Under the pieces are notes generated by a model, which was given only the letters and a program-made list of their open reading frames with translations, ran no database searches and was not told where the DNA came from. Below, in pieces: positions 3,471 through 63,679 of a stretch of DNA of 64,000 nt. The DNA is taken from the NCBI GenBank assembly GCA_011033025.1, contig WFMF01000001.1, positions 2,409,755-2,473,754 on the forward strand, read 5' to 3'. Both the position numbers and the translations under genes were made by a program. Source of the DNA: Beroe forskalii. Taxonomy: Eukaryota > Ctenophora > Nuda > Beroida > Beroidae. Position 1 is the first letter of the stretch, and each line of letters begins with the position of its first letter.

Positions 3471-3510
3471 TGACGTCATTATTATGTGACAAAGTGGCAC
3501 TAAGATGCCG
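3471..3510 (+). repeat. palindromic CRE element, copy 1 (degenerate)
   Basis: The left arm TGACGTCATTATTATG is followed about 25 bases later by a degraded right arm. The outer flank ACCGCCTAGTTTA at about 3518 matches the conserved right flank of the family. Confidence 0.55.
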
Positions 3511-3722
3511 CATAAAACCGCCTAGTTTATATTGTTTACGTGCGTGAGTTGAACCACTGAGATATAATATTTACTAGTGTTTGCATATAATATGTCAACA
3601 ACAAGCACAACAACAGTACTAACAGCGCACTTTTTAGGGGACGGTTCCGACTTTGTCTTATCAGCTCAGTTCTGTGCAGTGAGCATACAGCTCTGTGTAG
3701 GAGAATATTTGGGCACTGTTGA

Positions 3723-3763
3723 TGACGTCATCATCATAGATTAACATGCGTAGTTGATGACGT
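3723..3763 (+). repeat. palindromic CRE element, copy 2
   Basis: Left arm TGACGTCATCATCATAG, centre ATTAACATGCGTA, right arm GTTGATGACGT. The arms are imperfect inverted repeats of ACGTCATYAWC. Confidence 0.7.
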
Positions 3764-5665
3764 TTTAGCGCGTATACTGTGGTGACCGGAGCATACAAGT
3801 TCGATAAATCAGGAAGCCAGCACAATGCTCCCCAAACACAAACTTTATATAACAAAAACAAGTAAAAGTCCGGGTTACATCAGGGGAGGGAAGGTTTTAA
3901 AACTTTTACTGTCTTTGAAAAGAAAAAAAAACGTTGAAAATTAAAACATTCAGCACACGGAAGATGGCAGATATATATTGGGTATTTCTATAGCTGCTGT
4001 ATGGGAGTAAGGGGCATGGTACTGAACAAGACTTTTAAAACAAAACTTCCTAACTCCATGACCTTTTTATTTCAGGGTGTATGTGTTCAGATCACGTGAT
4101 TTTAATATTTTATTACATCACGTCTGTTATATCAATGGATTGGTGCGATACATCGCAATTCGAATGATCACTTTCTGATAAACCACTGAGTTTTCAACTT
4201 GGTGCATTCTTGAGGTTTGAGTGAGATATCTGATACTCTGATAATCTCAAGCATGGGAAATGGCTGCAACCTCTTGTAAGTTTTATGTATCAGCATTGAG
4301 CAATCTGTGTTACCTACACAATGCGAGACATACACTCTTTCACTACAAAGTAGCTGTATTCGGCTTGTACAGCCAACTTTGTGTAGCTAAAATTAAATTG
4401 AAAATAAGAGAAGCCTGATAATTTCGAGAGATCGCTAGAGAGACTAGTAACTTTGTCTGAGCAGAAGAGAATACTATCTTTTGCTAGGACCAAAAAAGAG
4501 GAAAATATTATGACGTTTCTCTCGATGAGCTTTGAGCCAACGAAAACTCATTGAAATAAGGCATGACACAAAAAACAGATTTGTACAGCAGAAACTGATC
4601 CGAATCAAGATAATCGGAATATATGAGTTGCAGGAAGAGGCGTGTTTCTAGCCAGACAGCTGATACCTATACAACTATTGGACAACGAGCTGAATAAATA
4701 TGTGTATCCACCACATCCAAGTGGAGCTATGGCAACAAATCGTAATTAAAATAATCAACAAATAAAAGCGGAGTTCAAACTAGACAAAATGTACGCTAAT
4801 TTGTCTGGAGAGAGGAAAAGTATTTAGGTAAACGAGATCTTATAATCTGCAAACGAAGGGGGGAAACAGCCATGATCTAGCTAGAAATATAGGGTAGATT
4901 CATATGTTGTGGTGTCCACTTTTCCTATATTATAGTCTGAACGAACCTCTGATTGACATAAGTGGAAGAGAGTTGGAAAACATGCATATTATAAATGTGC
5001 TAATGTGGAAAAGCCAATTTAATATGTCGTCATGATAATGAGATGATCTCCCGCTACTCTCACATAATAAGAACGTCACCTGTTTTCATTTCATGGCGTT
5101 TTAATTGCTTGCTGGATATGTACTTAACGACCAATTTGTCATTCCTTCATCAAGATCTAGGCGTCAGATAGGGCCATCATGGGTTTGGATTAAGAACATA
5201 TATATCAAACCTTTATTGATTTGTATTGATTATTAAACGAAATGATATCATTAATCATTTACTGATGTATTTACTGATTAATCCACATCGTTTGTATTTT
5301 CCGGGCTTTTTTGAAATCGGATTTAAAATTACGGCTCAGAATAAGAAGCCTCATTTCATTTGAATTCCCACAGGATTATATTAATTAAGAAATTATCAGA
5401 CTTTTATTATCATTCTCCTTTGATAATGGGGCGCCTGCTTTGAATTATATGTTCAAGTTCACACTTTAGATCAAGAAGTTCATGATATTGTATATTTTAA
5501 TTTAAGTATTATAATTGTTACCGGAATAACTTGTTAAAATCTATAACATGGGTGAAAAGAAATAAGGAATTTAATTATATGACATAATCATGGATTATCT
5601 AGAAAATGAATTAATTCACAGAAGAATAATTACCACTTGATCATAATTCAAAAATTATTACTTAC

Positions 5666-8600
5666 GCTGAAAATTCTTCAATTTCTTGAGCGTCGCTGCG
5701 ATACTTTTCTTCAACTTGGCAGATTTGTCAACAGTAGTAGGTTTCTGAAAAAGAGAGAGGGTTACTGATTTCGGCTGACCAATGACCGTGTCTCAGAATG
5801 TGAAAATTATCAAAAATTTCGCAACACACGGCTTTTTCCTTGAACACAGACTGAAGTGTACACCGTGACAGCTGCAGCACAGTATTTTTATCTACATACT
5901 GCAGTACAGAGTAGCTGTAATATGATCAACCATGAGTCTAGATGCTTAGTTGCTTCAACTGATCGGGAAGCAACAAAGAGAAACTGAATCCAAAGATAAA
6001 CTTAGACATGTCAGTGCTTGGTTTTCAGTTCATCTGAGTTTAACTTAAAAGTTAACTTAGGAGGCAAAAACCCCAGGCCAGTGAATCGATAGTTTCATAT
6101 CATGGAATCCTCAGTGTCTAATGTCTATGATTCATGTAAACTTGCCTGATCGGGTCCATATTGCTTTAGACCCTCGCCCTTTGGGCTGCGGGTCTAAACA
6201 GGATACATCCCTTGGCTAAGCCCTCGGGAAGTATCCCAAAATGGACCCGATAGGCGTGTGTCTATGTGCTTTATACAGTATTAATTATCAGGGGATGGCT
6301 CCACTCCCCAGTCCCCTAACGAAATGGAAACCCCCAAAGATCAACGCCAACCTGGCTTCCATATGTCGACTTCATATGCGTGTGAATGTGAGGACAGTGA
6401 TAGCTATGATAATTTGTTGCTATTATTAATTAGAGTGATGAATGGTGAATATCATAACATATAATATATCGTTTAAACTTTATAATGAAAATCACGGCAG
6501 TAGAACACTACCCATGGAGCGCTTTATAGCTCCAAAGTAATATGTAGGAGGGTCACTTCTCACTAGGGCCGGGTTAGGGACAAGGTTTCGTTGGGTTGAA
6601 AGTTTCATGGGATTATTCCATGAAATAACATTTGTATAACATTGATAGATTGATATAACATTGATATAATAACATAACTATAACATTAATATCTCAACAG
6701 TTCATAGTAATGCCTAACACACAGGTGATCTATACTGTACTCAGTCTCAAAGTCTCTTAGGAAATCATAGAACATACCCGTATGGTAATTAATCACATAA
6801 TTACTGTTAATTCTCCCTCCTACCCTTCACTCAACTGTCTACAAGACCGAGTAATTATAGTCCCGTGATGAGGATATGTAACCAATCAGATCACAGAAAA
6901 TTAGGAACTACCCAATGAAATAACAGGAAATAGTGTGCGAGTGAACACAAGAGTGGGGGAGTGAAGATAAGAGGGTTTTGGTATGATATTCATTCTCAAT
7001 GATAACCCTGTCAATGATACTAATTTTCTGAAAAGGGGAAACAAGGGATGATTTCTACACACGTTTTACTCAAAGTGAGGAAGAGTAAAGGTCGGTGTTT
7101 AAATTTATTTCAAATTCTGAATTCGGGTAGAAAAAATTCACAAAATATACTGCAATCATAATCTCGTAAATTTCATAATTCCTATAAGTTTCATGCTTAC
7201 TTTGACTGTCGTCCGGTTATAACCATGTCTCTCAATCCCAAACGGCTTAGGCTTGGTTCGAGTGGTCATGTTCACATCAACTTATATTTCTTGAGGAAAG
7301 AACAATCAACAATTTCAAATTTCAATATGGCTATGTCGTTTACGTTGAATTATGAAGGTCACGCTAAATTCATTTTACAGCTTAAAGTATTCAATAATAC
7401 AATCACTCAATCCCAAACGAATCAATCATATAATCGTCTCCGCCCAAGGATCAACGAAGCAAGGAAATCAGGAAGCGGATCTAAGCATTCAGACGGGTTG
7501 AAATGTGCAGCGACCACTCAAAATGCACAAATTGAGCAATCACTAGGTACTATATAATTTCCAAGCAATACTATGTTCTATTTCCAAGCAATTCCAAGCC
7601 ATAAAACGATGGAGGGGAAGAGTGAAGAAATATTTCATTTCCATCGGTCGGGGGGAAGTAGCGAAGTAAAGTATTTAATATATGACGGGTCATCACAAAA
7701 TCACTTCATTCATTTATTACACTAATTACTTTCAAATGAAATCGGGAGATCGTAGTTAAACGACAGCTTCATTTATCTCTATACAGTAACATATCATTGC
7801 ATTCGATAAAAGCTGCAGCTTATATATTGGAATACTACAACCACAAGAAATGATATATTGTGAAATATTTCACTTCACTGATCTCTACAAAATATACCGT
7901 GACAGCGTCAGCGCTTACCCTGCTCACTGTCACGCTCTGGAAGCAAGCGAAATGACGTCATTATCAGGGTTTAGAGTAGGGAGTTAGTGACGTCACGACG
8001 CCTACTTTTCACACGCAACACAGCGGCATATATCTCGCATTGCAGTGTTCTTGCCTTTTGAGGCAGTGGCATGCGGGTAAAAGTGAAATCTTCATTAACT
8101 CTCTCTCTTGTCGTGACGGAGTGGCTAAATGACTCAATGATTCGTCCGGCGAGAGTGAAAAACGGTTAATTCATCAGACCTAATAAACCAATGGAATTTA
8201 AAACCCTTAAATATATTATTACAGTATTAAGGGAAAGTCCTCTTTTAATGTGTAATAATTAACTATCATGTGTGTACAGTGTAAGTAAGATTTTCAATGG
8301 GGCACAGCGCCCCATTAGCACATGAGAAGGCGCAATACCTAGTGATGCGGGCGGGTTTATGTAGTGTGATGTGGTTTCAGTGAAAAATGGTGGTGACTGA
8401 AGAATCTAGCAAAATATTGACATAACACTACGAAACTACTACTAAAATACGACGAAAAATGCATCAGAATTCAAACGAATGAGGTATGTAGTTAAAAACT
8501 TAACAGGTTAAAGTGAGTAGCTTGAACGTACGAATTACGATGCACAACTACTACGCCCTACACCATGACACAGAATGTTGCAAATCTGACGGGAAACGTA

Positions 8601-10407
8601 ATTCACTGCACAATATTCTCGGGGGTACAAGAATTCAAGATGTCGCACCCTTGAGACAAATAGCTCAACGTAGGTACCTATTATGTGCACAGAATATGTA
8701 CATGTCCACGACGACCTAGCAGCAACTCACATATATTACAATTATTAAGGAGAGGGCTGAGACCATGATGCCTGCTCATGAATGGTCAGCAATTTGGCAG
8801 CGCGCAAAATGTAAATGACGTCATTGTGACCACCTATTTCTCCCAAGAACCTAATATAATATTGATCTTGCAGTATACAATTTGCAGGAAGACACCACAA
8901 AGGGAGACACCAGCTGAGCACATATCTGTCGAGTGACTTATTAAGAATGTTGTGCAGAGGAGGAAGGGCGTGGTTACGTCATCAAGGCACAATTGCTAAT
9001 CCTATTGGTGACGTCACACTGAATGATCAGTAAATTGCACGTTTCACAATGCTTTTGTTCCAGCGGACAATTCATACAATGTATGAAAAATATAATGCCT
9101 TTTGTGTGCGAGTTTGTTGGAACAGTACGTCAAATTTTTACAAAAAATTGGACCTTGTTAAATATCCTATATTATATACATTATACGTCATGATGGCGTT
9201 TATTTGTGATTTCCGTTGGTGGGGTTTTGTGGAGCTATATCTTTTTAGAACTCTGTTTTGTAGAGTTGCAGAAACCTCAGAGTGAAGAATGACAGGTTTT
9301 TGATAACTTTATCATGTGTATGTGATTGTCTCATACGTGAAATTTGGATAGGCTTGGTTTAATTTAATCAACCTAGATTACAGATATATGGACGGATCAA
9401 ATCACAGTACTTCTGTACTGGGATTTGTAGAGTAAAATACAGAAGCGTGAGAATTGACAACTTTCCTCTTCACGGTTTCCACACCACTAAACAAGAGCAT
9501 AAGAAAAAAAGGACAGAATTTTCAAGTCTTATTAATAATCAAGATTCGACCACACAGCTGCTCGAGAGAAAGTCGCAGAAAAGCGACTTTCCTTTCTCAT
9601 TCCTTTTCCTTTTTTCTTCTTTCCCTCTTTTTGGAGCCGTCAGGCCCACCTTTTCAAAAGGTCTGAAAGATTTCAGTTAAACCGTAAACCACCCAGTTAC
9701 CTGAGAGAAAATGGCGGAGAGGGACTGCTTCCACATCTCCACGTCCTCCCTACTTTGTGAACGGAGCTTCAGAGATTTCTGGTTACCGTTTGCTGGTGTA
9801 AGCAGCATAGAGTAGAGTGTTGGAGTATCCAGACTATGGACATCTGAAACAGTTCAGCCAGTTAACTTCTGATGAGCTTTACAATCCTATTTTTCAGGTA
9901 CAAGTTATCTAATAATAATATTTCAATTATCATTCTAGAACAATAAATTATACAATCTTAATTAAGCGTTTTCACTACCTACTATTCTAACAGGTAACCG
10001 TTACTGAAATGGATAGTTACTAAGTTAGGTTTCGATATTCACCTTTCAATGAGTTTTGCTTGAGATTGTCTTCTTCACAGCCGTCTGATATGCTGCAAAA
10101 CTGATTCAAATCAACAACTTCTTTAATTTGCCTCGATCTGTTTCCCTTCTGGAAATGAATGTTACATTAGTATTTAAGTATTCAAACGTACAGTGTTATC
10201 TGGTACATAAAATTCTCATAATATTTGTTTCCAAGAATATGAAAAATAGTTCTTTTGTTTCAAAGAATTAATCCGATTTTGAACTAATTTTACCTTGTCA
10301 ACATCGAAGACTAATAATCTGTCTTTCACCAAGAGAAAATGGTAGGTATACCAAATGGTAGATTCTTTCCTTTGAAGAACACCTTGAACTTCACCTTCAT
10401 AGTCCAT
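5666..10407 (-). CDS. PH-domain protein (3' end not found)
   Basis: Four phase-compatible exons on the minus strand: 10407-10294, 10148-10043, 9843-9701 and 5744-5666. The first three encode one pleckstrin-homology fold of about 120 residues. It starts MDYEGEVQGVLQRK, contains beta strands WYTYHFLLVKDRLLVFDVDK and RQIKEVVDLNQFCSIS, and ends in the characteristic helix SREDVEMWKQSLSAIF with its invariant Trp. PH domains typically bind phosphoinositides or proteins at membranes. The fourth exon encodes a Lys-rich segment (KSAKLKKSIAATLKKLKN). The start is chosen at 10407 because an in-frame TGA lies three codons upstream and an acceptor-like TTCTAG precedes it, implying an upstream 5'UTR exon. 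Further 3' exons are expected because the last exon ends in phase 1. I cannot name the family beyond PH. Confidence 0.75.
6145..6255. repeat. T-shaped foldback (three-way junction palindrome)
   Basis: An outer 11-bp perfect stem (ATCGGGTCCAT 6149-6159 with ATGGACCCGAT 6241-6251) extends by GCCT/AGGC across a one-base bulge. It encloses two independent hairpins. One is TTTAGACCC 6165-6173 with GGGTCTAAA 6190-6198 and an inner GCCC-TTT-GGGC. The other is GGATAC 6201-6206 with GTATCC 6231-6236, continued by TCCC/GGGA and GGC-TAA-GCC. It lies inside an intron of the PH gene. Confidence 0.85.
7953..7995 (+). repeat. palindromic CRE element, copy 3
   Basis: Left arm TGACGTCATTATCAGGG, centre TTTAGAGTAGG, right arm GAGTTAGTGACGTC, then the outer flank CGCCTACTTTTCACACGC. 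This is one of the best preserved copies and shows the outer conserved flank clearly. Confidence 0.75.
9567..9591. repeat. short perfect hairpin
   Basis: GAAAGTCGC and GCGACTTTC form a nine-base-pair stem with a short A-rich loop, followed by a pyrimidine-rich tract. No function is assigned. Confidence 0.5.
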
Positions 10408-16533: not shown

Positions 16534-16572
16534 CACTAAGTTTCATGAAATTTACCTTGTTTTATGTTTTAG

Positions 16573-19500: not shown

Positions 19501-22500
19501 CGCAATAAGTCATTGGCAATGATCCATGCGCTGGTGAACATGCAGCGTTTGATAAAGGCATTGATAAACACACGCATATTGCAGTGCGTGCAATTTACTG
19601 CCCATAAACTTTTTGTCGAGAGAACAGTATTTCATCGATCCATGTGCACACTGTATACGTGAACTTGAAACCATCAGGCTCATATCGGTGAGTAATCTGC
19701 TCTGTATTTCAGCATGAGTAATCTGCACTGTGTTCGTCAGGTGAAGCACCTGGAGCCGTGGGAGAAGGGCAGCAGGAAGACTGCCGGACAAACTGGCATG
19801 TGTGGCGGGGTCAGTGCGCATTTAATTTAGATATTCAATTCATGAAGCATATGTGTGCAGACCGCTCGACTATTGGAGAGCTCGAAAATTGCGTGCTTTC
19901 GATGGAATCTATGTCGAAGGTGCGAACAGTAAATCTGCACTTTTTTAGCACTCCTGTTATCGAGCGGTCCACACATTCTTAACTTGGTAGTATTGCTAAT
20001 AATGTCCGCCGTGGCGTGTTAACATAAGAATGTTTCGTGCGATTAATCCCACTTACCAGGCTCTACCACACACCACACAGCTTGTTTAACCCCACTTTAC
20101 CACGCTCTACCACACAGTGTGTTTAATCCCACTTTACCACGCTCTACCACGCTCTACACAGTGTGTTCAGCCCCACTTTACCACGCTCTACCACACAGTG
20201 TGTTTATCCCACTTACCACGCTCTACCACACAGTGTGTTTAATCCCACTTTACCACGCTCTACCACACAGCGTGTGTAATCCCCCTTACCACGCTCTGCC
20301 ACACAGCGTGTGTAATCCCCCATACCACACAGGTCCGTGGCGTGGGTGCAGGTGGCGTGGTGTCCAGTGCGTACTGCATCCTCTACAAGCTCTTCACCCT
20401 CAAGCTGACCCGCAACCAGGTGCACAGCATGCTCAACCACAACTTCGGTTTCGTGAGGGGGCTTGGATTCCTTTATCTCAGGTGCGGACTAGAGGTAGAG
20501 TACTGGAGGGGCGTGATACAATGATTTAATGAAAATTAAAATTTGGGCCTTTTTAGTCCAAACCATTATTATTCATTTGGAAATGAATTCAGATCATGAA
20601 TGTCGTTAAATCTAAATGAATCATCGACGTTGTATAGAAAATGAATTCTAATTGAAGTATTTGAAACAGAACTTTGATAAAAAGTATCTTTGAAACAGGT
20701 TTAAATTTCATTGTCGTGTTTACCTATTTCCACTGCCTACCGAATGACGTTTTGGCCCATTATCAAAGCCCGTCTAGAAGTACACCTGGACTCACACTAT
20801 ACGCCACTAGGTACACCCAACACCCCAGCACGTTTTGGGACTGGTTTGACCCATATTTAATGGACGAAGAGGTGGGTTGGAGTGGTGAGTAAACAATAGT
20901 CTGTAGTGACGTCATCGAGTACGTAGTAGTTTTGTAGAATAAGTAGTAACATGATAGAATACGTAGTAAAATCCAAGCATAATATCAGCGAAAGATGGTG
21001 TTTTAAACAGCTTTGGCAATTGACGCCCTGGCCAGGGCGGTCACCCCCAGCAAATCAGAAAAAGGAGAGTCAGGACCTTTCTAGAACGATTCGTCGTAAA
21101 ATTTAAGGTCTAGGACAACCGTCCTTATCGATACACGCATACTTAAATCACGCGCTACAGAGACATAACTAGGGGTATAAGTCAGAGAATTTGGTGTCAC
21201 GGTAGCTTAATAAGATATAATATGCTTCATTATATAAACTAACAAAACCGTTGGACGGCTGGTCTAGTAACCCCTCGCGGGTTAATGGGGGGGGGGGGGT
21301 ATTAAGTCATTAGACCAACCGTCCTACTACTCCAGCCCCTAACCGGACAGAGTTGTCCCATTCATGCATACATACTTACATACATTGATGATATTCTATG
21401 GATTTAATGACATTTGGATATTTATCGGGTCCCCTTTCGACCACTTTTTCAGAGCTGGGAAATTTTAGAGTTAATTTTAGAGTTAATTTTAGAGTTAATT
21501 TTAGAGTTAATTTTAGAGTTAATTTTAGAGTTAATTTTAGAGTTAATTTTAGAGTTAATTTTAGAGTTAATTTTAGAGTTAATTTTAGAGTTAATTTTAG
21601 AGTTAATTTTAGAGTTAATTTTAGAGTTAATTTTAGAGTTAATTTTAGAGTTAATTTTAGAGTTCATTTTAGAGTTCATTTTAGAGTTCATTTTAGAGTT
21701 CATTTTAGAGTTCATTTTAGAGTTCATTTTAGAGTTCATTTTAGAGTTCATTTTAGAGTTCATTTTAGAGTTCATTTTAGAGTTCATTTTAGAGTTCATT
21801 TTAGAGTTCATTTTAGAGTTCATTTAAGAGTTCATTTAAGAGTTCATTTTAGAGTTCGTTTTAGAGTTCATTTTAGAGTTCATTTTAGAGTTCATTTAAG
21901 AGTTCATTTAAGAGTTCATTTTAGAGTTCATTTTAGAGTTCATTTTAGAGTTCATTTTAGAGTTCATTTTAGAGTTCATTTTAGAGTTCATTTTAGAGTT
22001 CATTTTAGAGTTCATTTTAGAGTTCATTTTAGAGTTCATTTTAGAGTTCATTTTAGAGTTCATTTTAGAGTTCATTTTAGAGTTCATTTTAGAGTTCATT
22101 TTAGAGTTCATTTAAGATTTCATTTAAGAGTTCATTTAAGAGTTCATTTTAGAGTTCGTTTTAGAGTTCATTTTAGAGTTCATTTTAGAGTTCATTTAAG
22201 AACTTTCATTTAAGAGTTCATTTTAGAGTTCATTTTAGAGTTCATTTTAGAGTTCATTTTAGAGTTCATTTTAGAGTTCATTTTAGAGTTCATTTTAGAG
22301 TTAAAATAACACCCAATCTGCAGCTGGAAATAAGTGATATGTAAATTGATACTATTTTGACACAGAAAACTTATATGGTCTATGGCTAAAGATAATAAGA
22401 GTTATCGAAATAGAAAAGCATATGGAGATCCAGTTCCTTCAAAGTTCACATTCAATGTCCCAACCGGACATTTTCTAAAAACATGATAGTTTTTCTGCTA

Positions 22501-33583: not shown

Positions 33584-33598
33584 AAAAGGACCATCTGT

Positions 33599-45700: not shown

Positions 45701-48700
45701 GATTAGAGATTAGAAAAAGATTAGAGATTCATCCGCTGGTGAAATCGAAAAAAAAACTTCCATAGATTCGCAAAAATTACAATATCTTAAAAAGACGGAT
45801 AACTGTGAAATATGCTAATTGCTTCATCCTCTATAATCTATCTGCAGTATATCTACCTTGTTGATCTCGCGGGCGTGGTCAGCAGTGTTGGAGGTGTTGT
45901 AGAAGGAGGAGGTGTTAGCAGGCACACTGGACATGTACTGTCCAGATGTAGCTCCAAGACTCACGTTACTGTGGTTTGCCATCGTCTTACGGGGCCTGTG
46001 GTTGTTCATCCAAACCTGCGGAATGCGTGAGTTTAAAGTATAAGTCGGAAAAGTAAGCCTACCTGAAAAATGGGTTGTGGGTTTGAAATGGACTGGCATT
46101 TCTACGTGTTTTTGAATAAAGTCTTCTTTGACTTAGCATTGACTTGGTTTTAAACATGGAAACTGCTATGGATGAGCAAAATTCACTCAATGGCGTAATG
46201 GACATGACATTTTAGGCCTTAACGAAAGCACCACTATTGACAACTCTGTAATCTGAATTTATACATTCCCATATCGCTTCAATTGCCTCCCTGCCCATCA
46301 TCCAGGTTTTGTCGTTCTTTTTTGTTAAATTTAGTTTTTTGATTGATCTACAGATGAATCATTAAGTCAGAACGAAGTGCATCTGAGTCGCTCGTTGTTT
46401 TGTGGCAATTCAATTGAAATGCTGGCCTACATTTAGTATGGCATCAGGTTTACGAAGACTTATTATATAGACACGAAGTTATAGTTGGACGGAAACGTTC
46501 GAGATTGGTCGTGCAAGTCTCCCTCATCCGATCATAATTTTATATGTTTTTGTATCCATTTCCATACTATGCCGTATATATTAATCCGTCCAAAAAAACG
46601 TTAAATGCTTTCAGATAGCCCAGTAGACCGGCGTTTTTCAATTGTACGCAGAACGGAGAATCACTTTGTTTACTGTTATCTTATATTCCGAAGTTCTTTG
46701 AATAATAACCTAAAAAGCTTCCTAATTCGTTGGAAAGACTGTGTTACTTAAAGCAATTTTCTCAAACTGAATATATGAGTATATGTAAAGTCGTACCTGT
46801 ACAGAACGATGGCACTGTAATTGTACGTATATCATCCATAGCGAGCTCCTAGAAGAGCTTCCGAGCTACGGTTTTTTCATATGATGATGAGAGCTCTCTA
46901 GAGCTCTGAAGCTTACGATATATAGATATATATTTTTGAAATCTTAATCGTTTTCTAACCACCGGTGTAAATCCCTGTAAAATTCCCTATAAAACGTGGA
47001 AGTTGCATGGCTCTAGTCTGATGGTGATCCTCGGGTAAGTATCCAATATTGGAGGTAATTTGGAGAGTACGCCTCATTCACTGACCGTATCACATGGACT
47101 ACGACCATATTTCATTATTGCAAATTGTCCATACTGTCTACTGCAGATAGATACATATAAAGAGCTATCTATAATATATTATTTTCTCTCTCTCTTGCTG
47201 CACACATCCCAGTCTCCACTTGATCAACCAGGGATTTAAAAAAGCGCTGATATTTAATGGAAAAAAGTGCATTTGTCGACCAGATATATACCCTGCAAGA
47301 CACGTGAGACATTATCCCAGAAGATATATGTTGATACGAGCACGTGTGCGTGGCTGCCTACTCACATTCACGTATTTATATACCTATATATATATATTAA
47401 TTAATTAGTAAGATATATCTCCTGAAAAAGCAGCAGCTCTACAGACCAACAATGCGCATTACCAGTTTAAAACGTTCAGAACGTTTATAAGTATGACAGT
47501 ACATATCTCCCCGCTCATTGGTCCGAGTGAAATGCTCCCCGCCTCTGATTGGGTGGCTGTATCACGTGACCCATCGGCAGGTAGCGATTAATTAGATAGT
47601 TTTAAGTAAGACCACAGCACCACTTGGTACAAATTTTCTAATCAGAGCAAGGGGGTCGACCTGAAAACGGACACATGTTGCCATTGGTATATAAGCTGCT
47701 TGTCATCGCTTAGGAGACCCCTGCGGTGGATCAATGGCCGGGCCACCGTCATCAACTTCCTAGTTTGAGCTATGATAATGACGTCATCAGGACATCGCCT
47801 GCTGAATTTGAGTGGGAACCTCAGGCTCGGCCGGGAAGCACATCTTGTCTGTGTGCAAGCGAAGTGACGAAATTTTAACAGTCATCCTCATAAATCAAAT
47901 TAACATACTTTCCTTTCATAATTTAAACCAACGTACAATATATATCAGTGTGAAAATTTACCCGGGCAACATGTTTTGGTGTATCGCAGAGGATTTTCAT
48001 TCGGAGGACGGACAGCCCAGGAAATTTGAAAGGTTTTTCGTCTATTTCTACTATTTCAAATGTCAGTACAACGTCTGCCTTGAAGATTTCCAGTAATTCA
48101 ATAAAGTAGTAACATGGGCTAGGTTGGGGATGGATTAAAGGCAGTGCAAAGAAGCTTTCAAACATATAATCAACTTATATCAAGACTTTCAAAAGGTCGA
48201 ATATGTCAATGAACGAAGATATACAACTATGGAAGGAATAAACAGGACGCCCAAAAAGATACCAAACTAACAGTTCGGTATCTTTTTGAATCGAAATAAA
48301 GTTTGAAAGTATATTTCAGAATGATGAATTCTATAAAATTATTACAAACCTTCACTTGATAGAACGTCAAGCCGTGTTTCTGAGCAAACTCGTTGATCTT
48401 TTCACTCTCCCCGCGTTTCCAGTTTAATGCTGTTAGCGAAGGACTCAAGAGACAGTGTGGTGGCAGGACTAAATGAGGTTCTTTTCCGTCTGAAAATAGG
48501 TCAAGAGTTAATAGAATAGGTTAAGAGTCAAGAAAATAGGTTGAGAGTCAATAAAATAGGTTTGGAGTCAAGAAAATAAGTTGAGAGTCAAGAAAATAGG
48601 TTTGGAGTCAAGGAAATAGGTTTGGAGTCAAGGAAACAGATTTGGAGTCAAGGAAATAGGTCAAAATGTCAAGAAAATACACCTTTTCTCATTAAAATGG

Positions 48701-51700
48701 GTTTTTGGGCTTAGGGAATGGGATTTTGTGAAAAAACAGGACTCAGAAACACGTGTGCGCGGGAAAAACCGCTGCGCGCGCCGTCTAAAATATAGCTCAG
48801 TGGGTAGTGCGTCATTACAATCAACACTTACGTATTGCGCCGCGTCTTACGTCGATACAATATTACCAGCGCGCATATTACAAGTCTTGGGCTTCTTGAG
48901 AATTTTGTTCATTCGGTACCTTTCCTCAATAAGCACCAAAAATTTTACCGATTGAAAAAACATTTCCCCTAAAGTATGCGATGGAAGTCAGAGTTCCCCT
49001 TATATCGTAAACGGATATTGCAATCAATAGCCGATCATCGAAAAACGTATATATCGCAATCAATTGCCGATCGAAAAATGTCCACTTATTCATTTATAAA
49101 AGTTTATAGTTTGGTAAAACGAGAATAGAAAAAATAACTAACCTCCTCTCTGTTTACATAATATAAATGATAAACAATTTCCAGTATATCTTATTAAAAA
49201 ACACTGGCGCCACTCGAACGAGGCTCCGATTGTATTTTAATTTTGTTGTTCTAACAATGAAATTGGGTGACACAATAATGAAAGTCCCATTTAAACGAGA
49301 TTCATTAACCAATGTCACTTGCGAACTCGTGGCATTAGTACGCTAATGCCACTCGAGAGAGAGCGCGCGCGGCATTAGTCCCCTGCAGCCTCTCCCATAG
49401 TCCTGGCATTAGTTTGCCAAGCTGAGTGGTCGACAGGTACTTATAATACTGAAGGTAATGTGAGGCACCAAAAACAAGATACATAACTTAGCATATATAT
49501 CCCTCGAAATCAGGCATTGTTTGTCTCGAAAAATGAAAGTCTGTGATGGGGAATCCGAAACACGCGCAGTGTTTAGACGAACCGCGCGCGCACACGCGAA
49601 AAGTAGATCCGCGTGCGTTGATGACATTATCAGGGCTTATAATGGGGTGTGTAAATGACGGAGAACGGCCGACTTTTTGAACGGGCCATTTTTACGTTTT
49701 TTATATATATTGTTTATTGTGAGCCAAAGTTTGCAATCATAGACTATATAGACTGATTGTAAACAGTTATTAGGAACGAGCAAAGTTTGATACATGTCTT
49801 GTTTTTAAAAACACAGATCCATTAGCCATGTTGGAGTATTATTCTAGCTAAAAACTCGTCTTAGTTGAAGAAAATTTCACCTTTTTGTAGTTATAAAAAC
49901 TGCATCAAGTCATTGTCTGCTATAACAATAAGTAGGTATGAAAAAGAATGTGGTATCAACGGAATGAAATAGGAATTGAGAACGTGAATACGGGATATAA
50001 GTTTGGTTTGAGGAAAGAAAGGAATTCTGAGAATTTGGGTAAAGATCCCCGACGAAAAATTTCGATAACATTGGGCAAGAACGTCTGATAACGACTAAAC
50101 CAATTCCGTATTTTTGAGATTAAAAAGATGAGCCCATAGCATACTATAGAACATATTTTATCTTTCATAGCATTCACAAAATGTCAAGATTTTTGGACAG
50201 CTGCACTCAAATATTCAAATAATTTTTATGATCCAACTGTTTGCCGACACTTCCCGATTTCACACTCCAGAAATGACGATCTCCTGAAATAGCCGTCGTA
50301 GGCGTTATCTCACCCGACACTTACCACGTCTATTCCAAGTCTCATAATGTGAGTCCCAATCTCCGATAGCCGAACGGAGCCTATTTTTTGGAGCCTATCA
50401 CATTTCGATAAAGGATACAATATATGTTTTATATATATTATATTTGGCGTGATACTAGGTGCGAGAAAGCATGCATAACTACCGCTAGACCCCTAATTGG
50501 TTAACTGCTTAACTGGTTAATATATCAGTCTTTTCATAATATACGGACATATATATATCGAATCTAAACTCCAAATGATGCATGTGCGATCCTCTTTACT
50601 TCTTTATATACCTACTGTGAAAAGTCTAACAGCTGACAAATATAGGGGGTATTTACAAATAAAAGGTAAACGTGTGCCTACAATGATTCCCCTAACGACT
50701 ACTCATTTATGTGAGAATATAAAAGCATAGCATTCGGCTTTGTTGCCGCTTCAATGGGTTTCCCCCATTCATCTCCCACTATATAGTATATATATTAACT
50801 CCCTGTATCTTATTATCTTTCTAAAAAAGAAGAAATAAAAACGTGCCTAATTACGTAGAAATTGACGTTTAAGCGTTGCCGTATTTATGTCCATTACGGT
50901 GGGCTGGGTAATATATCAACGTGACCAAGATGTGAATAGCTGACAGCTAAATAACGTCATTATCATAGGTTAACGTAGCGCGTTGATGAACTTTCGAACC
51001 GCCTATTTAGATACGTATTCCCCTAAGTGTGATAAGGTTCAATAAGCTTTCAAGGATCAGCCTAAAGGTGGTGCATGCAGGGGAGGTTTATATGTTTATA
51101 TATATTATATTTGCTATTGTCTTACAATCATTAGAGTAGCCGTACCCCCCATAATTTTGTCGCTGACTCATTCAAAGCTCCAACTTGACGACAACATATA
51201 TAGTAATTGCAACACACACTTATCTCGCATGCCTATATATAATAGTATTTCCCGCTGACCCATGCAGTAATTTCATAAGAAAATCCGGGGTCGAGAAATG
51301 GAGATGGCCAAGAATAAGTTGAAAATATCCCCATGGGGAAATACGGTAATTGCGACACACCATTATCTCGTTAAGATGGAGGGATTATCTCATAAACCCT
51401 AATGAAGCCCATTTCCACGTCCGGGTGTCAGGGAATATCGGAATATGGTCCTGCAAACTTTACAACACTACTTTATAAAATCAAATTTGAGATTTCCTGA
51501 TGACGTTGAAGTTTCGTCGGAATTAATTGAATTTCAGAAAAAGTTCGTTTCACTTCGCCGAGCAAAAAAAGAATACAAAAATTATTCATTCCATTTGTCC
51601 GGTCAAAAACAATTGTCTCATACTTCAGCCAAGCTGTTCCACCAGGCATTATTGGGAAATTTACCCTGGCTACTCGAGGACGGGAATGAGTCCAGGGCGT

Positions 51701-54700
51701 CAATTACGAAATGGATGTTTTGCCAAAACCCGACTTGAGTAAACATTTAGTTGCAGATTTGAACTAAAATTTTGATTGGTTTATCGGCTGAAAGCCTATC
51801 TGTTTGTTCGGATCAACCAAGACGAACAGTATGTAAAACTGATTGCAACACTTTCTTTTGCTTTCTGTAAAAAATTTTTTCTTTAAAGTTTTCTTTATCA
51901 GTTTATCTAATCGTGTTGAAACCTCTGATCATCGTGCTAAACTAAATTAATGATGTTGCAAAATCAATTTCATTCCAGAAAACTATCCAAAATGCTGATT
52001 CTGAATGCTATTACAAACTAATTGAGCCTATTGATGGGAATAATAATCAAGTAATGTAAAGCGTTTAGCACTAATCTACAGTGTTAAGCCGATGATTTGG
52101 GATTTATCAACAGCCAATTCACGGCAACAATGAGTTATTTTTAATGATTTCCAAGAAGCCATAGCAATAGATAAAATTTTTAGCAGGAAAATAGCACCTA
52201 TAAAAGTTAAAAAGTCTGGTTAATAAGAGCCTTTATTTGTCTATACAACTATCGCCCTGAAGGGGCCATACACCAGTTCGAATGACGTCACTAACACGCA
52301 TTAACATAGTGAAAGGATGACGATTTCCCGCCCACATTTCGTGCGAGTCAATTACAAGGCAAAGACATCTCGCGCATATAATGATAATCATTAGAATTCT
52401 CCGTGCTTGGCGTTCAGCAGTACACGCCTCGCTGGCGTCGTATTAGTTTACCCACAGGTCCATTTGACATTGGCCAATCAGCGTCCGAGTTGACTGCAAA
52501 CTCGTTCGCTGATTGGTCAATGTCTTAACGATTTCCTATGGGTAAACTAGAATAGCTGGCGTCGTCAGAATTATCTCCGGAAGCTGCTGATATGTGTGTT
52601 CAAATACTGCTAGAAACGGCGCACAAAGCCGTGGTTTTTGGTATTTTTACTAAAGATGTATGGATTGAAATTCTACTGAGCGCATGGTTGGAGAAAGGAG
52701 ATTTTTTTCTCTGATTCTTTGGTATTTTTAAGTTTTAAGTAAAGATATATGGATTAAAATTTTACTAAGACTGTTTGAAGATTGAAGGAATAATATTTTT
52801 AATGTTTCTCAAACAACTTTATCATAAGGCCTGCAAACCCTTTAAATATTACTGCCCATGCCTGAACGATAACATTGCAATATTTCAATATATGCAAAAC
52901 GTGACTGCTTGAGTGAATGATAATAATTATGTATTATAATACCGTGAAAAATTCATATCAAAATATGCCACAGTAGCCAGTGAAACAGCTACAAGTCCCT
53001 GTAGCAGCTTTATTCAATATTTTAGATTAAAACCCGATCTGTTCTGCCACAATATATAACATATATCCCTTGGGTTACAAAGTTTTGTCAGCGTTTATCA
53101 GTGACCTCACGATCATGGTTTTTAATGGAAATTGACAACGTAACACGACTATAATGCTCACTCGAGCCCTGTAAAATGTGTGTTACGTCAATTTAACTTG
53201 TAACTCACTCAGGCACACGTCGGGTTTATTCGAGGAGTGATTGGTGCAAAAATTATTAATAAACCCAATCCAATACTGTCACATATTCATTACCCCTAAA
53301 AACCATTTACAACTATATTCACACGTAATATAAATGACAATAATGTTTAATTAAAATAAAATATTGACAAGGCTCGCCTCTATTTCTCCAAGAAAGCTTG
53401 CTACAGCAGCTTCTCATGTCATTTTATAGGATGCCTTCAAGTCTCCGACTTTAATATTATCATTCGCTTGAGATATCCAAGTTACTTAGTATGTTATATA
53501 ATATATCTCACAAAAAATCTCATATGATAGAGTCATTTGCCTGCGTAGCCTCTCTGATCACACAAGTGTTAAAAATTATTACGGACACGGAAAATTCCGT
53601 TGAAGTCCTTGAAAATATAATAATTCGTCAAAGGTTGGGGAGTCGGGAAATAGCGCGAATTTGACGACAGATTTGAGTATTTAGTTTTAAACCGCAGTGC
53701 ACCATCCCACAACATAATGTTTACCTACAACTGTATATTATATACAGTAGGTATATAAAGTGCAGGCACTATCACACAATGTAAAGTAGTGGATTCCCCG
53801 AGACAGTTGTACAGATTCAACGGTAGAAGCAGGAGATATCATAATCTTAGATTATATTCAGTGGGATTATCCTGGGGAGAAATATCCTGGACACCAATAT
53901 TACCATCTATTTATGTATCTATATATTCCGATATCCACAATGAGCTTTACGATACAAAGAACGATCATATAGTGTTAGCTATTCATAAAAGTATAATTGT
54001 TCCGGTAGTTTGGCTGAAGTTCACTAGTGAAGATAAGCAGACTCCCCTTCTGTAGTGCTCACACTAAAGTATACAAAGAGTGGAGAATAGCCACTCCAAC
54101 ATCCCTAAAGCACCATGTTAAGCTATGATGATGACGTCATCCAGGGTCCTGCCAACTATATAAATACAGGTTGAAGTAGCTCTCCCATATTATTATAGTG
54201 TGATATGATGACAAGAGGGTTTGAACGTCTACCTAACGCTGCATCCAATAATTAGAAGATTTCTCGAGACTCAGTGGCGTCAATTTTTACTAATGTCATC
54301 GCATTGCCTACCTCTGAAATTATCACTTTTTTATGTGCGACAGATTCCTTTAGCAGGAGCGCGGAGAGCGCACGGGCAATGGCCGGACACGACCCTTTGC
54401 CCGGGAGATTTGATCACGTTGTATGAGCGATTCTCACACTCACCCGGCCACGCCACGGAGATTAGACACGATCCTCGTCACTAACTCACCACTCTAAACC
54501 CTGATAATGACGTCATAATCACCCGCCATTTGCCGCGTGTTTTGCAGAGGACACAGCTTCGCGGCGGCGGCTGGTTCTGTAGTGTCACCAGGAAGATCTG
54601 GCTTGCTCAATAGTCATGTTGATGATATGATAACCCTCTAGGGGAGGAAGGAGGTGGTGCAGAACATGATGAAGAGCTTGGTGTGAGATAATACACCTCT

Positions 54701-57700
54701 TGTTACCAGTAATGGGCGGAAATTAACACGATAACTAGAGAGGATGATTTGTGGAGTTTTTTCAAAGGGCGTTCCCGTTCCTACTACACCACGGAGAGGA
54801 GAGAATAGTGGATTATTTGACTCTTCCTGATCAGTGAATTGTCTAGCTGAGATTGAACATGTGAGTAAAGCCATATACTCCGGTGATATTATATATTATT
54901 TTCCTAACATGTGAGAATATGAAGAAGAAGAAGTATAAAGGCCTTAAAGCCTTAATTTGCAGGTTTTCACACCACAGCAACTCTAATCACCATCATGAAT
55001 TGAAGGGGGAAAAGAGCGTTGCTTAGCGAATAATAGCTGGAGGGAAAAAGCTTTTAAAACATTTTAACTTTTTTATTAATAGTCTGATAAGGAGCTGTTC
55101 ATTTTTCATTGGATCTGCGTAAATGAACATGACTGATGAGCAACAATGAGCATTTGCAATTTGCCCAAAATCTTATTCCTGGCCATTGATATACTTTCAA
55201 AGTTGTGATTAACCATTATAAAATGAGGGTTTTGGATGGCCCACTATATCACCGCATCTCAATCCTGTAGAATGAAACTTGCAGACATCGTATCTCAGCG
55301 ATAAACATCTCTAGAAATAATATCTAAGAACTGCATATTCGATCATATTTTTGTCTTGTTTTTGCTTTTCCCGGACAACACACCGAAGTACGTTCCCTCT
55401 CTCCTCCTCCTCCTCCTCCTCCTCCTCCTGCTACATGTTTTCGAGACCCAATTCTTGGTCGGATAGACAACATACCCACATGCAGATGGGCCACGTCTTT
55501 CGTTCACCAAATCCTTCCACCAGAACATAATCCCAGCCTTCCAATGCTGCGTTCCGAGGTCATTTGCATCTCCTTCGGAGGGAGTATAAGCGAGGGGAAA
55601 GCCAATAACAGATATACCCTATCAGATCTGATATATATATTATATATCTCTTTTATCTATCAGTTCTAGCTATATATTTCTAATGTTTTATGAAAATGCT
55701 GTGATTTGAGACCGGAATGATAATTTGCCGGACAGCGAACCCCTGCTGTCGCCCGTCGCATCCCCAATGGAAAGCAATATTTTCCCTATATCTCCTGTAT
55801 AATTACAGACCTATATTTAGGCCTATATATATCTATGTAGGTATATATCGACATTCAGATATAAACCTAACTATCTCTGGCGGGATATAATCGAGAGATA
55901 GATCAGGAAATGTTGTGAGATTCAGAGGCAGTTCCGTAATCTCAGATCCTGGGGCCCGGTCATATCTCAGATCACAAGTCTATGCAGGTTGCAAACAAAC
56001 AGCAGATGACTGATGGTGACGTCATTATCATAGCTGACAGTAGGGCTCTGATGACGTAGAGCTTACTCCTTGCCCGAGGATATGGCTTTTAACATTTGTC
56101 TTTTTCTGATAATATCCCGAATGAACAGTAATTGTTTTTCAAGGATCTATAATTATTATATCTATATACTCACAGGAACAAATTTCTCAAGAATGATGTC
56201 ACATATTATCCTGCACGATCAATCATTGGCGACCAATGAGTCAATCGCAGGCGATGTTTAGATGTCATTATCATAGCGCAACATGATAAGTTGATGATGA
56301 GGGATTGCCTGCTTTTTACGACATGCGTTTAGAGATCTCTGAAGTGAGCCGGTATCAGGTGCTTGATTTAACAGCAGGTATTATATAATTTATGTGGTCG
56401 CAGAAACAATCATAATGTTAGCAGCTGCTAAACCTACGGAAAATAACCCGTTAAAATTCAAAGCGAAATCTGCACTTTATAAATCAAACCGGAAGTCGAT
56501 AAGCATAAACGGAAAACGAACGCGGCTCAGACGTAAGGACTGCAAGATATTTGAAACAAAGCTCAAATATGTTCATTGTTCTTAAAATAGGGAATAATAA
56601 GGAGTTTGTGATTATGCAATTTGCAGACGTTTTGGCCATGCACATAGTAAACATAAGGAATGTAGTTGCCATGGTAACATATCCATAGTGAAGATAGTGA
56701 CGTCATCAGTTACCAAATATGGGCAATAGATCGTACTGGGAAACACTCGTATAACTCGTAAGGTATGACAATTATTCAGTATATATTCGTGATGCCAATG
56801 TTTATATTTTCTTCTGTGTTTGGAGGAGCTAATACGCTATACACACAATGAGAGAATGAGGGAGGAGGTATCTGGATAACATCTGGAATAGCTTTCCAAT
56901 AACAGATGTGAACAAGATCTGGAAAGACCTTTCTACAAGATCTGGATGGATCTTTCGTGACAGTTTCACAATAAAACTACGACGAAAACGTTAATTTATC
57001 AGGGTTCTAGGCCATACCTTACATCTTATTCCATATACCAAGTGAACCATATCCAAATAACAGCATTGTAGCCCTACATTCCTCAAGGGGAAGCCGAATG
57101 TCCCAAAAATCTCTTGATTCTAGAACTGTTCATTATATCCATTTCACGAATGATTTAATAATACCCCCATGCGTCAAAAATGGAAAATATTCCAAATTTC
57201 AGCTACCCATTTTCAGAAGTTTAATCTTCACACCTTATTAAGTGCAGCTAACCTTTGTCTCGGACAACTTTGTGCCTGCCGTACTTTCCATCATTTTCAA
57301 ATATTTGAGCTATTTTTCAAGGAATATAATATTATATATTTTTTAAAGAATTTTAAGGGAATAATAGTTCAATGAACTTTAATATACGATATGTTTTGTA
57401 TGCGTATTATATACAAAACATTGAATAAAACAATGTTCCGGGAAGCCGGTCAAGCATTACATGCACTGTTCAATAGATTATCTGTAAAGAACCATTTAAT
57501 ACGTGCCATAAACTTGTCAACCACTCGACCGTCCACGTGCACTAGACCTGTTCAAATGACGTCATTATCATAGATTAAAATGGCTCATTGTTGACATCAC
57601 ACCGTCTACCCTATTTTTGAGACATCATATTTTCTTTATCTAGAGTGGTGATGTTGTCACTACCCTGCCTATATAAAACATGATAAGACATAGAAATTAC

Positions 57701-58505: not shown

Positions 58506-60792
58506 CTGTTTGAAGGGAGGGAGAGAGGGAGGCAGGCCACTCTCCTAAAACCTGTAAGAGGGGAGTGGGTGAGAGCCTAAAACCTAGAGCCGAAAATGGG
58601 AGGGTTTAAGTCGGGGAAGATTCCTCAAGATTTGATGTTATGGCTATGAAAATAGTATAGGATTTTCTGATTTTTAGGCAATTAAAGATAGTGAAAATAA
58701 GGTGACTACGAAGAGTATTGGGTCTATTAGCAGGCTTAATAATAAAGTTTATGGACAAAAAGGCCACTATTATTATAGGTACACTTTCAGTTGGCTTATT
58801 TGAATCTGACAATATGACTTTCAAGCGGACTCCATTGATGAGCGACCTTTACCAATACTACTACACTACTATCTGCTCGGTAAGTTAAGAAGTTAGGCTC
58901 CAGTAATCGACCACTTCCCTTTCCCTATCTACCACTTCCTTCACAATACTCAAAATTAAGGGTGATTACTTGTTAATCAAGTCAGTAAATCTGTATTATA
59001 ATTTACCGATGGTCAAAATCACTGGACGTACTTCCGCCTGCTAATACACAACAATATTGTGCTTAATTGGAAAATTAAATGCACTTTAAACTGCAATTAG
59101 GCAGCTACCAAACAATCAATATATAATTACCGATAAAAGCGCTTTGGTTTTATGATCCGTTCCGTGGGGGACTTATCTATCGGAACGCTAATATCATTAA
59201 ATTACACCGATTATCGAAAGCTAAATCAACTCTTTATCTCCTCCATTGAGCCCAAACCTAGCAGTGGTTGAAAGTAAGCTGTATTGACGCTTTGTTAAGG
59301 AACTTTAGAGAATTTTCATAACATCCAGATGACGCTAAATTAGGAAATTTATAAATTTTACTGTGATCAGGGACTCAAATTTTACTTTATTTGGGGTTGA
59401 AAAATCAGCACTTACAAATTTTTTCCTGAGCCCATACTTGTACTTTTGAATGCCATAATGATTTAGAATTATTCAAATATGCTGGTTTCATTTTCCAGGT
59501 ATTCGAGCATCACGTAGGTCGTAGAATAAAGAATTATTAATGACAAAAGTTTTAATGACTATGGTTATGACAAATGGGTAATATATGCAGGAAATTGACG
59601 TTTTGATTGCTGGAAAAAATATTGAGTAAAGAAATTTGAATAATTGCTGTTAAACTGACGATTGGGAAGTAAAGTTGTGCATAGAAAATAAGCGAGTGAG
59701 TTTGAGGTCATTATTATGATTTAGAGTGGTGGATTGATGATTTCAAATCGCATACTTTTCATTCGAGACTTGAAATAATGCATTAACTATAACAGAATTA
59801 CTCGGTTATTTGTCATCTTCAATAGGGCCTTGGATTATAGAGGGATATTCGAAAAATAGAGAAATAGGTGTCAAGGCAAAACTTTGACAATTCCTCGCAT
59901 AAATGTATATAATTTGCAAAATATATCAAAGATTTTTTGAAGGTGACAGATTATTATTGTGATTCATTATACGTGGCCGGTTTGACAAAGAAAATCGAAA
60001 TAATCACATTAACCAAAATTAATTTGAATATTTTGGTTACTGTATATAAAATATCAGTCTCTTGGCTGATATAGCATAAAATGTGCTCAAAAACGTTCGT
60101 TTACAGTGAATTAGTGAGCGAGATTAAGATTGTCAACGCCTGAAAATTTTTGTTTGACATGAAAATAATAGTAAACAAAGTGGTGGTATCCCATTGGTCA
60201 AGCCCAGAGCTGAAGTTATTTGAACAATTTTCTTGCTCATTTCAAAATATCTACCTGTTTCGAAGGAAAATAATTTTTGCTCATGTTAGCTCGCTTCAAC
60301 TAAATTCTCCTCGATTCGATCATCGAAAGCGAGGTTATATCACCATCAGCTCAAAATATGCCGCATCACAAAAATTCTGAATCACTAATAATGTTACCGT
60401 ACACATAACTAATCTACCCGTGTGGTTTTTTATATATATATTCTAAATTCAAGGTATATATTTTATATATTTCTCGATATATATATTTTATATATTAAGT
60501 TATAGTTACGATCCGCATTTATATATATATAACGTAAAACAACGTATTCTTACAATACCACCGGGTAGGCTTCAAATTGATTTTTAACGACAAAACAACG
60601 ATCCTTTTCCTCCATTTGCCCTCTCCCCCTCCGTCTCTCTCCATCTCTCGGATCAGACATTTCGCTACTCTTTTTATTATATAGCACAGATTAACAATTG
60701 TCGGGTGATAGCGGGCGAGTTTACGGAAATCCGTAAGTGTCACCGTAAATCTGAGTGCGAACAAGGAAAAAACGCGCCAGTAATATGCTGAC

Positions 60793-60833
60793 ACGTCATC
60801 AACTCACCACGCTAAACCCTGATAATGACGTCA
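60793..60833 (-). repeat. palindromic CRE element, copy 13
   Basis: Reverse orientation: ACGTCATCAACTCACCACGC then TAAACCCTGATAATGACGTCA. Closest to the consensus of all copies. Confidence 0.8.
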
Positions 60834-61022: not shown

Positions 61023-61065
61023 TGACATCATTATCAGGAGTAGGAATGGGGAATAGTGCCATGTC
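61023..61065 (+). repeat. palindromic CRE element, copy 14 (degenerate)
   Basis: TGACATCATTATCAGGAGTA ... ATAGTGCCATGTCAC. The left arm is clear and the right arm decayed; the preceding GATTAGGCGGGTTACAG matches the left outer flank. Confidence 0.6.
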
Positions 61066-61843
61066 ACGGATCAGGGTGTTTTTCACTCTGCGCGCGCGCG
61101 TTCAATCTATCAGTTCTTGAGTACCTATATATATATATTGAATAACAAAAAAAATATATATTCAAGTGTACGGAGTATAATATAAAGCTAAAGGTCAAAT
61201 TTGGTCGCTGCGCTCTGTTCCAAAAGATGTTATGAGGATTTGTCGGTTAATTATTTTGTATCAGTGTTGAGATGGTACCCTCGAAAATGGGCAGTTCTTT
61301 ATACTTCAGCTGACGGTGCTGACAAGGTGTACCATTCGTACGTAACTGTGTCAATTTAATTTCATTAAATTTATAGCCAGCTACAATATATTTAGCTCAG
61401 ATGCGCCCGGATCTTTTGCTAATATATATTTTATACGTTTTTTTACAATATATACCAAAAAATAGTATATATATGGAAGATGTAACGCGCGCACAAGCGA
61501 ATCGTTTAAATTCTGTATATTTCCGAAAGTGGCAGGGAATCTTGTAAAGTTGTAAGGGATGCATATCCGTGATAACTGCACAAGCAATTTGCGAGATCGG
61601 CCGAAACACGTTACACGATATTGTGCAGTTTAGGAAAAGTACGGTATTTTTTGTATTCAGTTCAAAGCACTATAGGCATGACATCACTTTCAAATATTCT
61701 GTTCGCGATTTAGTAAATTTTATATTATTTGAGTCAAAGATTAGAGTTAAAACGGCCGTGACTCTGAACGCATGCAGTCAAGGTGGCTCTGTATCTCTGA
61801 CTGGCGTGGGTTTCTAATCTGTTACTCGACAAATAGGCGTTTC

Positions 61844-61885
61844 AACCTCATCTTCTCACTACTTTGAGGTATGATAATGGCGTCA
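61844..61885 (-). repeat. palindromic CRE element, copy 15 (degenerate)
   Basis: Reverse orientation: ACCTCATCTTCTCACTACTT then TGAGGTATGATAATGGCGTCA, preceded by the outer flank AAATAGGCGTTTC. Confidence 0.6.
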
Positions 61886-62611: not shown

Positions 62612-62650
62612 TGACGTCATTATCATGGCACAATGTGGTGAGTTGATGAG
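62612..62650 (+). repeat. palindromic CRE element, copy 16
   Basis: TGACGTCATTATCATGGCAC ... TGGTGAGTTGATGAG. Arms and spacing match the consensus. Confidence 0.75.
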
Positions 62651-62959
62651 TTTTATAAACCTTTTCATGCGAGCAGGGGGTTTAATTGGTAGAGCAGATA
62701 GGCCAGATGTCGGATATATGATATATATTCTCCCTCATATATTTTGTACGGAATTGTATTTTAACCGGTAAGAACGAAATTTTAAACCAACTCTTTTGCT
62801 CTATTGATTATCTCTATCGATTCAGGGAGATTTCCAGCCCTTAATAAAGACCGTTAGATCCTGCTTCTGGCTCTCTTGCAGTGGTGAGGTAATAAATAAC
62901 GTATGAAAACCCTGGCCTCCGTCTAAACCACCCAACGCGATAAAAGCAGGCGGTTATCA

Positions 62960-63000
62960 ACGTCATCAACTCACCATTCTAAGCCATGATAATGACATCA
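62960..63000 (-). repeat. palindromic CRE element, copy 17
   Basis: Reverse orientation: ACGTCATCAACTCACCATTC then TAAGCCATGATAATGACATCA, with outer flank AAAAGCAGGCGG at 62942-62953, the clearest outer arm in the set. Confidence 0.8.
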
Positions 63001-63636
63001 TCACCACCATCTATATTTACCTGGCGAGCATTTTATCAGTGGATCAAAACATGGAACTAAGTGCCAGTATATGTACAAATATATATATACCATATCTTAC
63101 ATAATTCATAAATGTCTCAACATCAGCTTTCAAGGTATGCCTGGCTCGCTGCCTGTTGGACCACAGTGCGCCAGCTAACCAGTCGCGGCCTACATAGATT
63201 TATATATATTCAATCATTATCATATACACATATCATATATAATATATCACATAATAACATGTATAATATATTCGGCCTGAAGATCAGAGATATATCTAGC
63301 GTATATATATTTTCTATAAATTCTGGGATTGGGAACAGCCTGGTTATATAAATATTACCTCTTCTCCACACGGCGTATGTTCCGAGATGTTTGGGAGACC
63401 TCCCTCCACACAGAACGTTATTGGTTCTGATATTTCCGATACAGATTATGCAATGTCGAATAAAAGCAGTGCACGGGAGGGGAAATTACTCCCAGTTATC
63501 CTATATATAACGTACGGGTTTCACGTCTTTTGTCTGGTCAATCAATGATAATTAACGGTAACTCTTGGCAGTGACCGAGACAGAGAGAAAGAGCCATATT
63601 ATGGAGGAGTGGACGGAAGACTAGGCGAGTGGACGA

Positions 63637-63679
63637 TGACGTCATTATCATAGCTTAATTTGGTGAATTGCTGATATCA
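63637..63679 (+). repeat. palindromic CRE element, copy 18
   Basis: TGACGTCATTATCATAGCTT then AATTTGGTGAATTGCTGATATCA, with left flank CTAGGCGAGTGGA. Confidence 0.7.

Follow-up and report, generated by a model that had tools for sequence, protein, structure and literature searches.

Among described systems, the closest to the repeat family reported here are the miniature inverted-repeat transposable elements (MITEs) with TA borders, of the Tc1/mariner group. The family came to light in a 64,000-nucleotide stretch of the genome of the ctenophore Beroe forskalii (assembly GCA_011033025.1, contig WFMF01000001.1, positions 2,409,755 to 2,473,754), which we call the window. It appears there as a repeated module with a centre of about 43 bp, hereafter the core, flanked by two arms. 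Its members have the marks of a MITE in being short, non-coding, dispersed, of high copy number and ended by inverted repeats, and they share with the TA-bordered group that these terminal repeats are long, that TA lies at both borders and that copies occur in both orientations. Unlike in those elements, the part preserved in old copies is the centre and not the ends.

Two further systems concern chromatin loops. In Mnemiopsis and Hormiphora, the ctenophore-specific zinc-finger proteins CTEP1 and CTEP2 are reported to bind a GC-rich motif, containing two CpGs, at which loops are anchored, and more than 90% of promoters in loops are reported to carry a DNA-transposon insertion (PMC12221973). 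In the same account a placozoan loop motif sits in the terminal repeats of Mutator, at promoter-hub loop anchors, and is proposed to be a domesticated regulatory site (PMC12221973). The Beroe core resembles the Mnemiopsis anchor motif in having thousands of sites in a ctenophore and two CpGs; however, the CTEP motif is called GC-rich (PMC12221973), and the core, with a G+C content of about 42%, is not notably so. A link between them is a lead only. With the placozoan repeats the core shares that a transposon-borne motif is found at many sites, but the phylum and the transposon are different, and the motif lies there in the terminal repeat and here in the centre (PMC12221973).

In the core, two TGACGTCA-type sites face each other at a distance of 35 bp, and next to the left one stands TTATCA. 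The octamer itself, the cAMP response element, is present at both ends of the core, in agreement with the CREB/ATF site named in an initial annotation of the window. Unlike a lone response element, the octamer is here part of a unit of about 43 bp with nearly fixed spacing, longer than a basic leucine zipper (bZIP) site. The spacing varies little: among 55 exact matches to the left 14-mer of the core, TGACGTCATTATCA, 40 have a recognisable right half, in 39 of the 40 at the same offset. In a profile of 60 copies with the exact 14-mer, conservation has sharp limits, at -1 and at about +40, and beyond them the arms are weak.

A search of the whole genome (216 Mb in 1,134 contigs) returned 7,719 exact matches to this 14-mer, 3,926 forward and 3,793 reverse, so copies are not limited to this locus; the same pattern read backwards occurs three times. 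An exact 14-mer of the arms, with four variants pooled, gave 1,278 matches, a ratio of about 6:1 in favour of the core. The mobile origin that the initial annotation favoured is borne out by the genome-wide copies, their two orientations and the existence of young, near-identical, dispersed palindromes. We read the family as an old MITE family that has been active recently, and its mobility is well supported. We found no description of this palindrome family in the open-licence literature, nor the 14-mer, nor TGACGTCA together with MITE and inverted repeat. The kind of element is ordinary; the conservation pattern is unusual.

In old copies, including those of the window, the 43-bp centre is kept far better than the arms. 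Searching by the right half alone yielded 87 copies, 66 of which have a left core with at most 5/14 positions diverged (mean 8%); the arms of the same 66 are diverged by 36% and 41%, and random places by 54-56%. Across all 87 copies the left core is 20% diverged and the arms 41% and 45%. Position by position, in 66 old copies (83 pre-filtered at 4/14 in the left core, minus 17 that are young or tandem), identity is 85-97% at the positions of the left core and mostly 30-55% at those of the arms. A search by both arms alone gave 16 rows, where the shuffled control gave 2; the rows hold 10 distinct elements, and all 10 carry a core with at most 2/14 diverged. On either side of old copies the arms leave a weak but significant signal. 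Their presence on the left and on the right is uncorrelated (rho -0.12, p = 0.33), and for this reason a mixture of armed and armless copies was rejected. Compensatory pairing between the left and right flanks of old copies was not found. Insertion of a bare 43-bp core was likewise rejected, there being no direct repeat beside the core. Flanking direct repeats scored 12 or more in 5 of 85 copies and in none of the shuffled pairs; the five comprise two tandem arrays, one other repeat family and two remaining copies (L011_3400 and L010_3214).

What process leaves the centre intact while the arms decay? Selection for transposition works on source elements and not on inserted copies, so that once a copy is inserted its core and arms should diverge equally. 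They diverge unequally: either retention after insertion or a homogenising process on the core is needed. The reading we prefer, with a probability of roughly 0.58, is that these are copies of a MITE-type palindrome whose centre is a putative protein-binding site, kept copy by copy after insertion. The family has spread genome-wide in both orientations and has been active recently; in old copies the arms have decayed and the centre is preserved far better, with its nearly fixed spacing. A putative binding protein would need this centre, and old copies would act as binding sites that the transposon wrote into the genome. Constraint on the core is something we infer from sequence. The initial annotation had seen a possible sign of selection in cores that diverged copies retain; this is borne out for the form of the pattern, and a function of the core is putative. 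For the binder we can offer a guess, by analogy: an architectural zinc-finger factor of ctenophores, as at the Mnemiopsis loop anchors, or a bZIP protein at the CRE-like sites.

A bolder version of the same idea seems to us quite unlikely. It holds that the MITE wrote thousands of sites of about 43 bp, and that most old copies are individually under purifying selection and anchor a ctenophore-specific architectural protein, the whole forming a looping code parallel to placozoan Mutator. If the core is held by selection in old copies, few larger sets of transposon-derived sites would be retained in this copy-by-copy manner, and the phylum concerned is one that is often regarded as the sister group of all other animals. 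The core would then give a concrete sequence for how non-bilaterian genomes gained distal regulatory or architectural sites. If the family is a plain MITE family, it still provides a repeat model that can be used in the annotation of ctenophore genomes.

Within the window, TGACGTCATTATCA with up to three mismatches occurs 52 times, against 8.6 +/- 2.8 expected from 100 shuffles. For a finer census we trained a weight matrix of 43 bp, using 57 copies that all lie outside the window, and took the best score among 30 first-order-Markov windows (11.8) as the threshold. This gave 23 copies, 14 on the plus strand and 9 on the minus strand. They include each of the 18 places that the initial annotation had listed, in both orientations as it had said, and five further copies, marked "additional" here:

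282..324, minus strand: degenerate core copy, additional; matrix score 19.3
2763..2805, plus strand: core copy, additional; matrix score 30.9
3471..3513, plus strand: core copy; matrix score 25.1
3723..3765, plus strand: core copy; matrix score 46.0
7953..7995, plus strand: core copy whose left 14-mer is exact, with the right arm CGCCTACTTTTC retained and the left arm gone, judged by arm scores; matrix score 56.8
8781..8823, minus strand: very degenerate, borderline core copy, additional; matrix score 13.3
8974..9016, minus strand: degenerate core copy, additional; matrix score 26.1
47744..47786, minus strand: core copy with exact left 14-mer; matrix score 47.2
49619..49661, plus strand: degenerate core copy; matrix score 16.1
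50952..50994, plus strand: core copy with right arm ACCGCCTATTT nearby; matrix score 41.4
52283..52325, plus strand: core copy; matrix score 33.6
54097..54139, minus strand: core copy; matrix score 40.1
54473..54515, minus strand: core copy with exact left 14-mer; matrix score 54.9
56017..56059, plus strand: core copy with exact left 14-mer; matrix score 45.1
56260..56302, plus strand: core copy; matrix score 33.8
57557..57599, plus strand: core copy with exact left 14-mer; matrix score 44.6
59703..59745, plus strand: core copy with both arms still detected, additional; matrix score 40.1
60791..60833, minus strand: core copy with exact left 14-mer; matrix score 59.8
61023..61065, plus strand: borderline core copy; matrix score 12.3
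61843..61885, minus strand: core copy; matrix score 39.2
62612..62654, plus strand: core copy with exact left 14-mer; matrix score 49.6
62958..63000, minus strand: core copy with both arms still detected; matrix score 59.0
63637..63679, plus strand: core copy with exact left 14-mer; matrix score 44.8

The copies at 61023 and 8781 are borderline against the null maximum. The matrix found no copy between 9,016 and 47,744, in keeping with the gap described earlier between 9 and 47 kb. Six 10-kb stretches of the same contig, picked at round coordinates, hold one copy in total at the same threshold, which is why we count the cluster at 47-64 kb as dense. Eight window copies with the exact left 14-mer were scored for arms: one arm exceeds the 95% null in five of the eight, and both do so in none. 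The full unit had been described as an inverted repeat of 75-80 bp with outer arms; this is true of the family consensus and of young copies elsewhere, and it fails for most copies in the window, where the arms have largely decayed. The clustering at 47-64 kb might also suggest a cis-regulatory module that belongs to one homeobox locus only, as had been proposed, but copies run to thousands genome-wide. Moreover, scoring 150 of 152 candidates gave 104 homeodomain matches genome-wide; none of them lies in the window, and the nearest on the contig is about 275 kb away. On these two grounds the module was rejected, and we find the idea hardly credible.

The contrast between core and arms recurs when copies are compared with their nearest relatives. 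For three old copies, L017_8334 and the window copies 7953 and 60833, we scored the closest relatives in the genome, taking 40 candidates each, 39 besides the query. Only 1 of the 117 relatives aligns at least 15 bases into both arms, and none of the 39 does so for either window copy. The right arm is reached by at least 15 bases in 7/39 (L017_8334), 11/39 (7953) and 0/39 (60833), and the left arm in 2/39, 0/39 and 5/39, respectively. Most of these alignments span the core only, at 91-98% identity. From 40 relatives fetched for L017_8334 and window copy 7953, 39 had enough flank. Compared in pairs, these are 86% identical over the core, but only 34% over the left arm and 48% over the right; control flanks give 26%. 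Pairs that are nearest by core share 94% of the core and 43% of the arms, and pairs that are nearest by arms 59% of the arms and 87% of the core. Only within the young subfamily and tandem arrays did we see families whose members have arms in common.

The young subfamily gives the structure of the intact element. It comprises 83 copies within three mismatches of a 77-bp sequence (40 forward, 43 reverse), of which 40 were fetched and 39 profiled, one being removed as a segmental duplicate. The element is a palindrome of about 100 bp with TA on each side, 101 bp lying between the two TAs, and its single-strand hairpin is strong (z -10.6). The terminal inverted repeats, about 30 bp long and nearly perfect, end in WYTAWAC / GTWTARW and are palindromic to the ends. 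The borders read Y-TA on the left and TA-R on the right, with TA at both in most of the 39 copies. Exact 19-mers of the element end number 292 genome-wide. Among the matches listed, two intact ends lying 8 kb from each other were a candidate for an autonomous partner, and they proved to belong to two separate copies. CpG decay was rejected as the cause of faster arms, CpG transitions in young copies running at the average rate. In 2 of 39 young copies a long direct repeat, of 14 and 15 bp, lies next to the element; among 760 shuffled pairs, 2 had repeats of 13-15 bp. In L052 and L055 (left borders) and in L011 near 3400, the left end appears truncated and is flanked by direct repeats, 8-17 bp long, of the right flank.

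These palindromic ends and this recent activity are what a plain MITE would show. On that account the centre is needed for transposition only, for example as a transposase-binding site, and is conserved among sources; the arms drift between many source lineages, and inserted copies are neutral. The mild depletion of substitutions in the core of young copies fits it, as does a palindrome of about 260 bp at L112 ~7129-7401, which has similar ends (GCGTATTAGAAATTGGCGG, 4 mismatches, 15/19 letters the same) and no recognisable core. However, neutral time should diverge core and arms alike, yet between nearest pairs the difference is about 6% for the core and 57% for the arms, and arm-sharing families have not turned up beyond the young subfamily and the arrays. 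We regard the plain MITE as a possible though unlikely account.

Several observations weigh against retention of the core after insertion. The relatives of the three old copies were chosen by a similarity that the core dominates. In young copies the left core is only mildly depleted of substitutions, at 1.6% against 2.8% in the arms (80 of the 83 copies; odds ratio 0.57, p = 0.03), and the rate is highest in the centre, at 5.8%. No autonomous partner appeared among the end matches listed, transposase families not having been searched for. The left and right borders do not co-vary in the 32 young copies with intact ends, and the joined flanks of 11 copies gave no empty site (0/11), which leaves a TA target duplication only likely. 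Structural instability of the palindrome might be the cause of arm loss. Finally, copies are clustered: of the gaps between exact 14-mers on the contig (positions up to 2.04 Mb among the matches listed, one tandem array counted once), 26 of 67 are shorter than 5 kb; 10.6 would be expected, and none of 5,000 uniform draws gave more than 21. With none at 9-47 kb of the window and one in the six unselected stretches, such patchy placement is how unselected transposons often lie.

A homogenising process is the other way to obtain unequal divergence. Gene conversion or slippage could homogenise the cores, with 35-bp tandem arrays as donors. The junction from core to core, GTTGATGACGTCATTATCA, occurs exactly 387 times genome-wide, with many at 35-bp steps among the matches listed, and arrays of 35-36 bp units sharing TGACGTCA are found at L009 4173-4423, L011 3190-3340 and L013 9550-9660. 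Because TGACGTCA is its own reverse complement, the inverted halves of the core are also direct repeats 35 bp apart, and slippage on these would let arrays grow. But tandem junctions are few beside the 7,719 single core 14-mers, and conversion of 43 bp among thousands of dispersed sites would be unusual. We consider such concerted evolution distinctly improbable.

Could the core be the promoter of many small RNA genes, like the motif upstream of PIWI-interacting RNA (piRNA) genes in nematodes, with sites that run to thousands in either orientation, have flanks of their own and form clusters? It is a bounded motif with unique flanks, and it is clustered. Against this, the profile as far as +80 has no clear fixed bias in downstream bases, and a transposon accounts better for the weak homologous arms to the left and right. 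We consider a promoter very improbable.

At least two other repeats, both palindromic, carry the 14-mer. At L018 4740-4990, a long palindrome has one in each arm and CCCTAA-like repeats outside, with 209 of 236 aligned letters matching its own reverse complement. A separate palindromic repeat of about 210 bp, with ends TACCTTAGGAGGT / ACCTCCTAAGGTA and a self-complementary match of 184/199, lies at L002 ~1406-1615 and L014 ~1763-1962. In local alignment, each of the two shares just 16-17 consecutive identical letters with the young element. The L002/L014 repeat may carry along an old insertion of the core element, since by eye the likeness to the core seems to run further.

The window contains no Rfam family at gathering thresholds and no transfer RNA (tRNA) gene. 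An open frame at 22545-23495 on the minus strand has a PLAT/LH2 domain (E 1.1e-14), with internal repeats by eye, and the open frame at 21392-22213, a minisatellite that looks coding, is made up of repeats of a short peptide (FRVN/FRVH).

The assembly also includes a mitochondrial contig (C1134, 13,339 bases), whose COX1 has TGA read as tryptophan. Its G+C content is 17.5%, and a mean of 17.3% is given for three published Beroe forskalii mitogenomes (PMC6991124). ARAGORN, in its bacterial setting, found no tRNA in the first 9,900 bases, and a lack of tRNAs is reported for ctenophore mitogenomes (PMC6991124). The contig has a direct duplication of about 260 bp, 90% identical, at 4273-4529 and 7532-7794.

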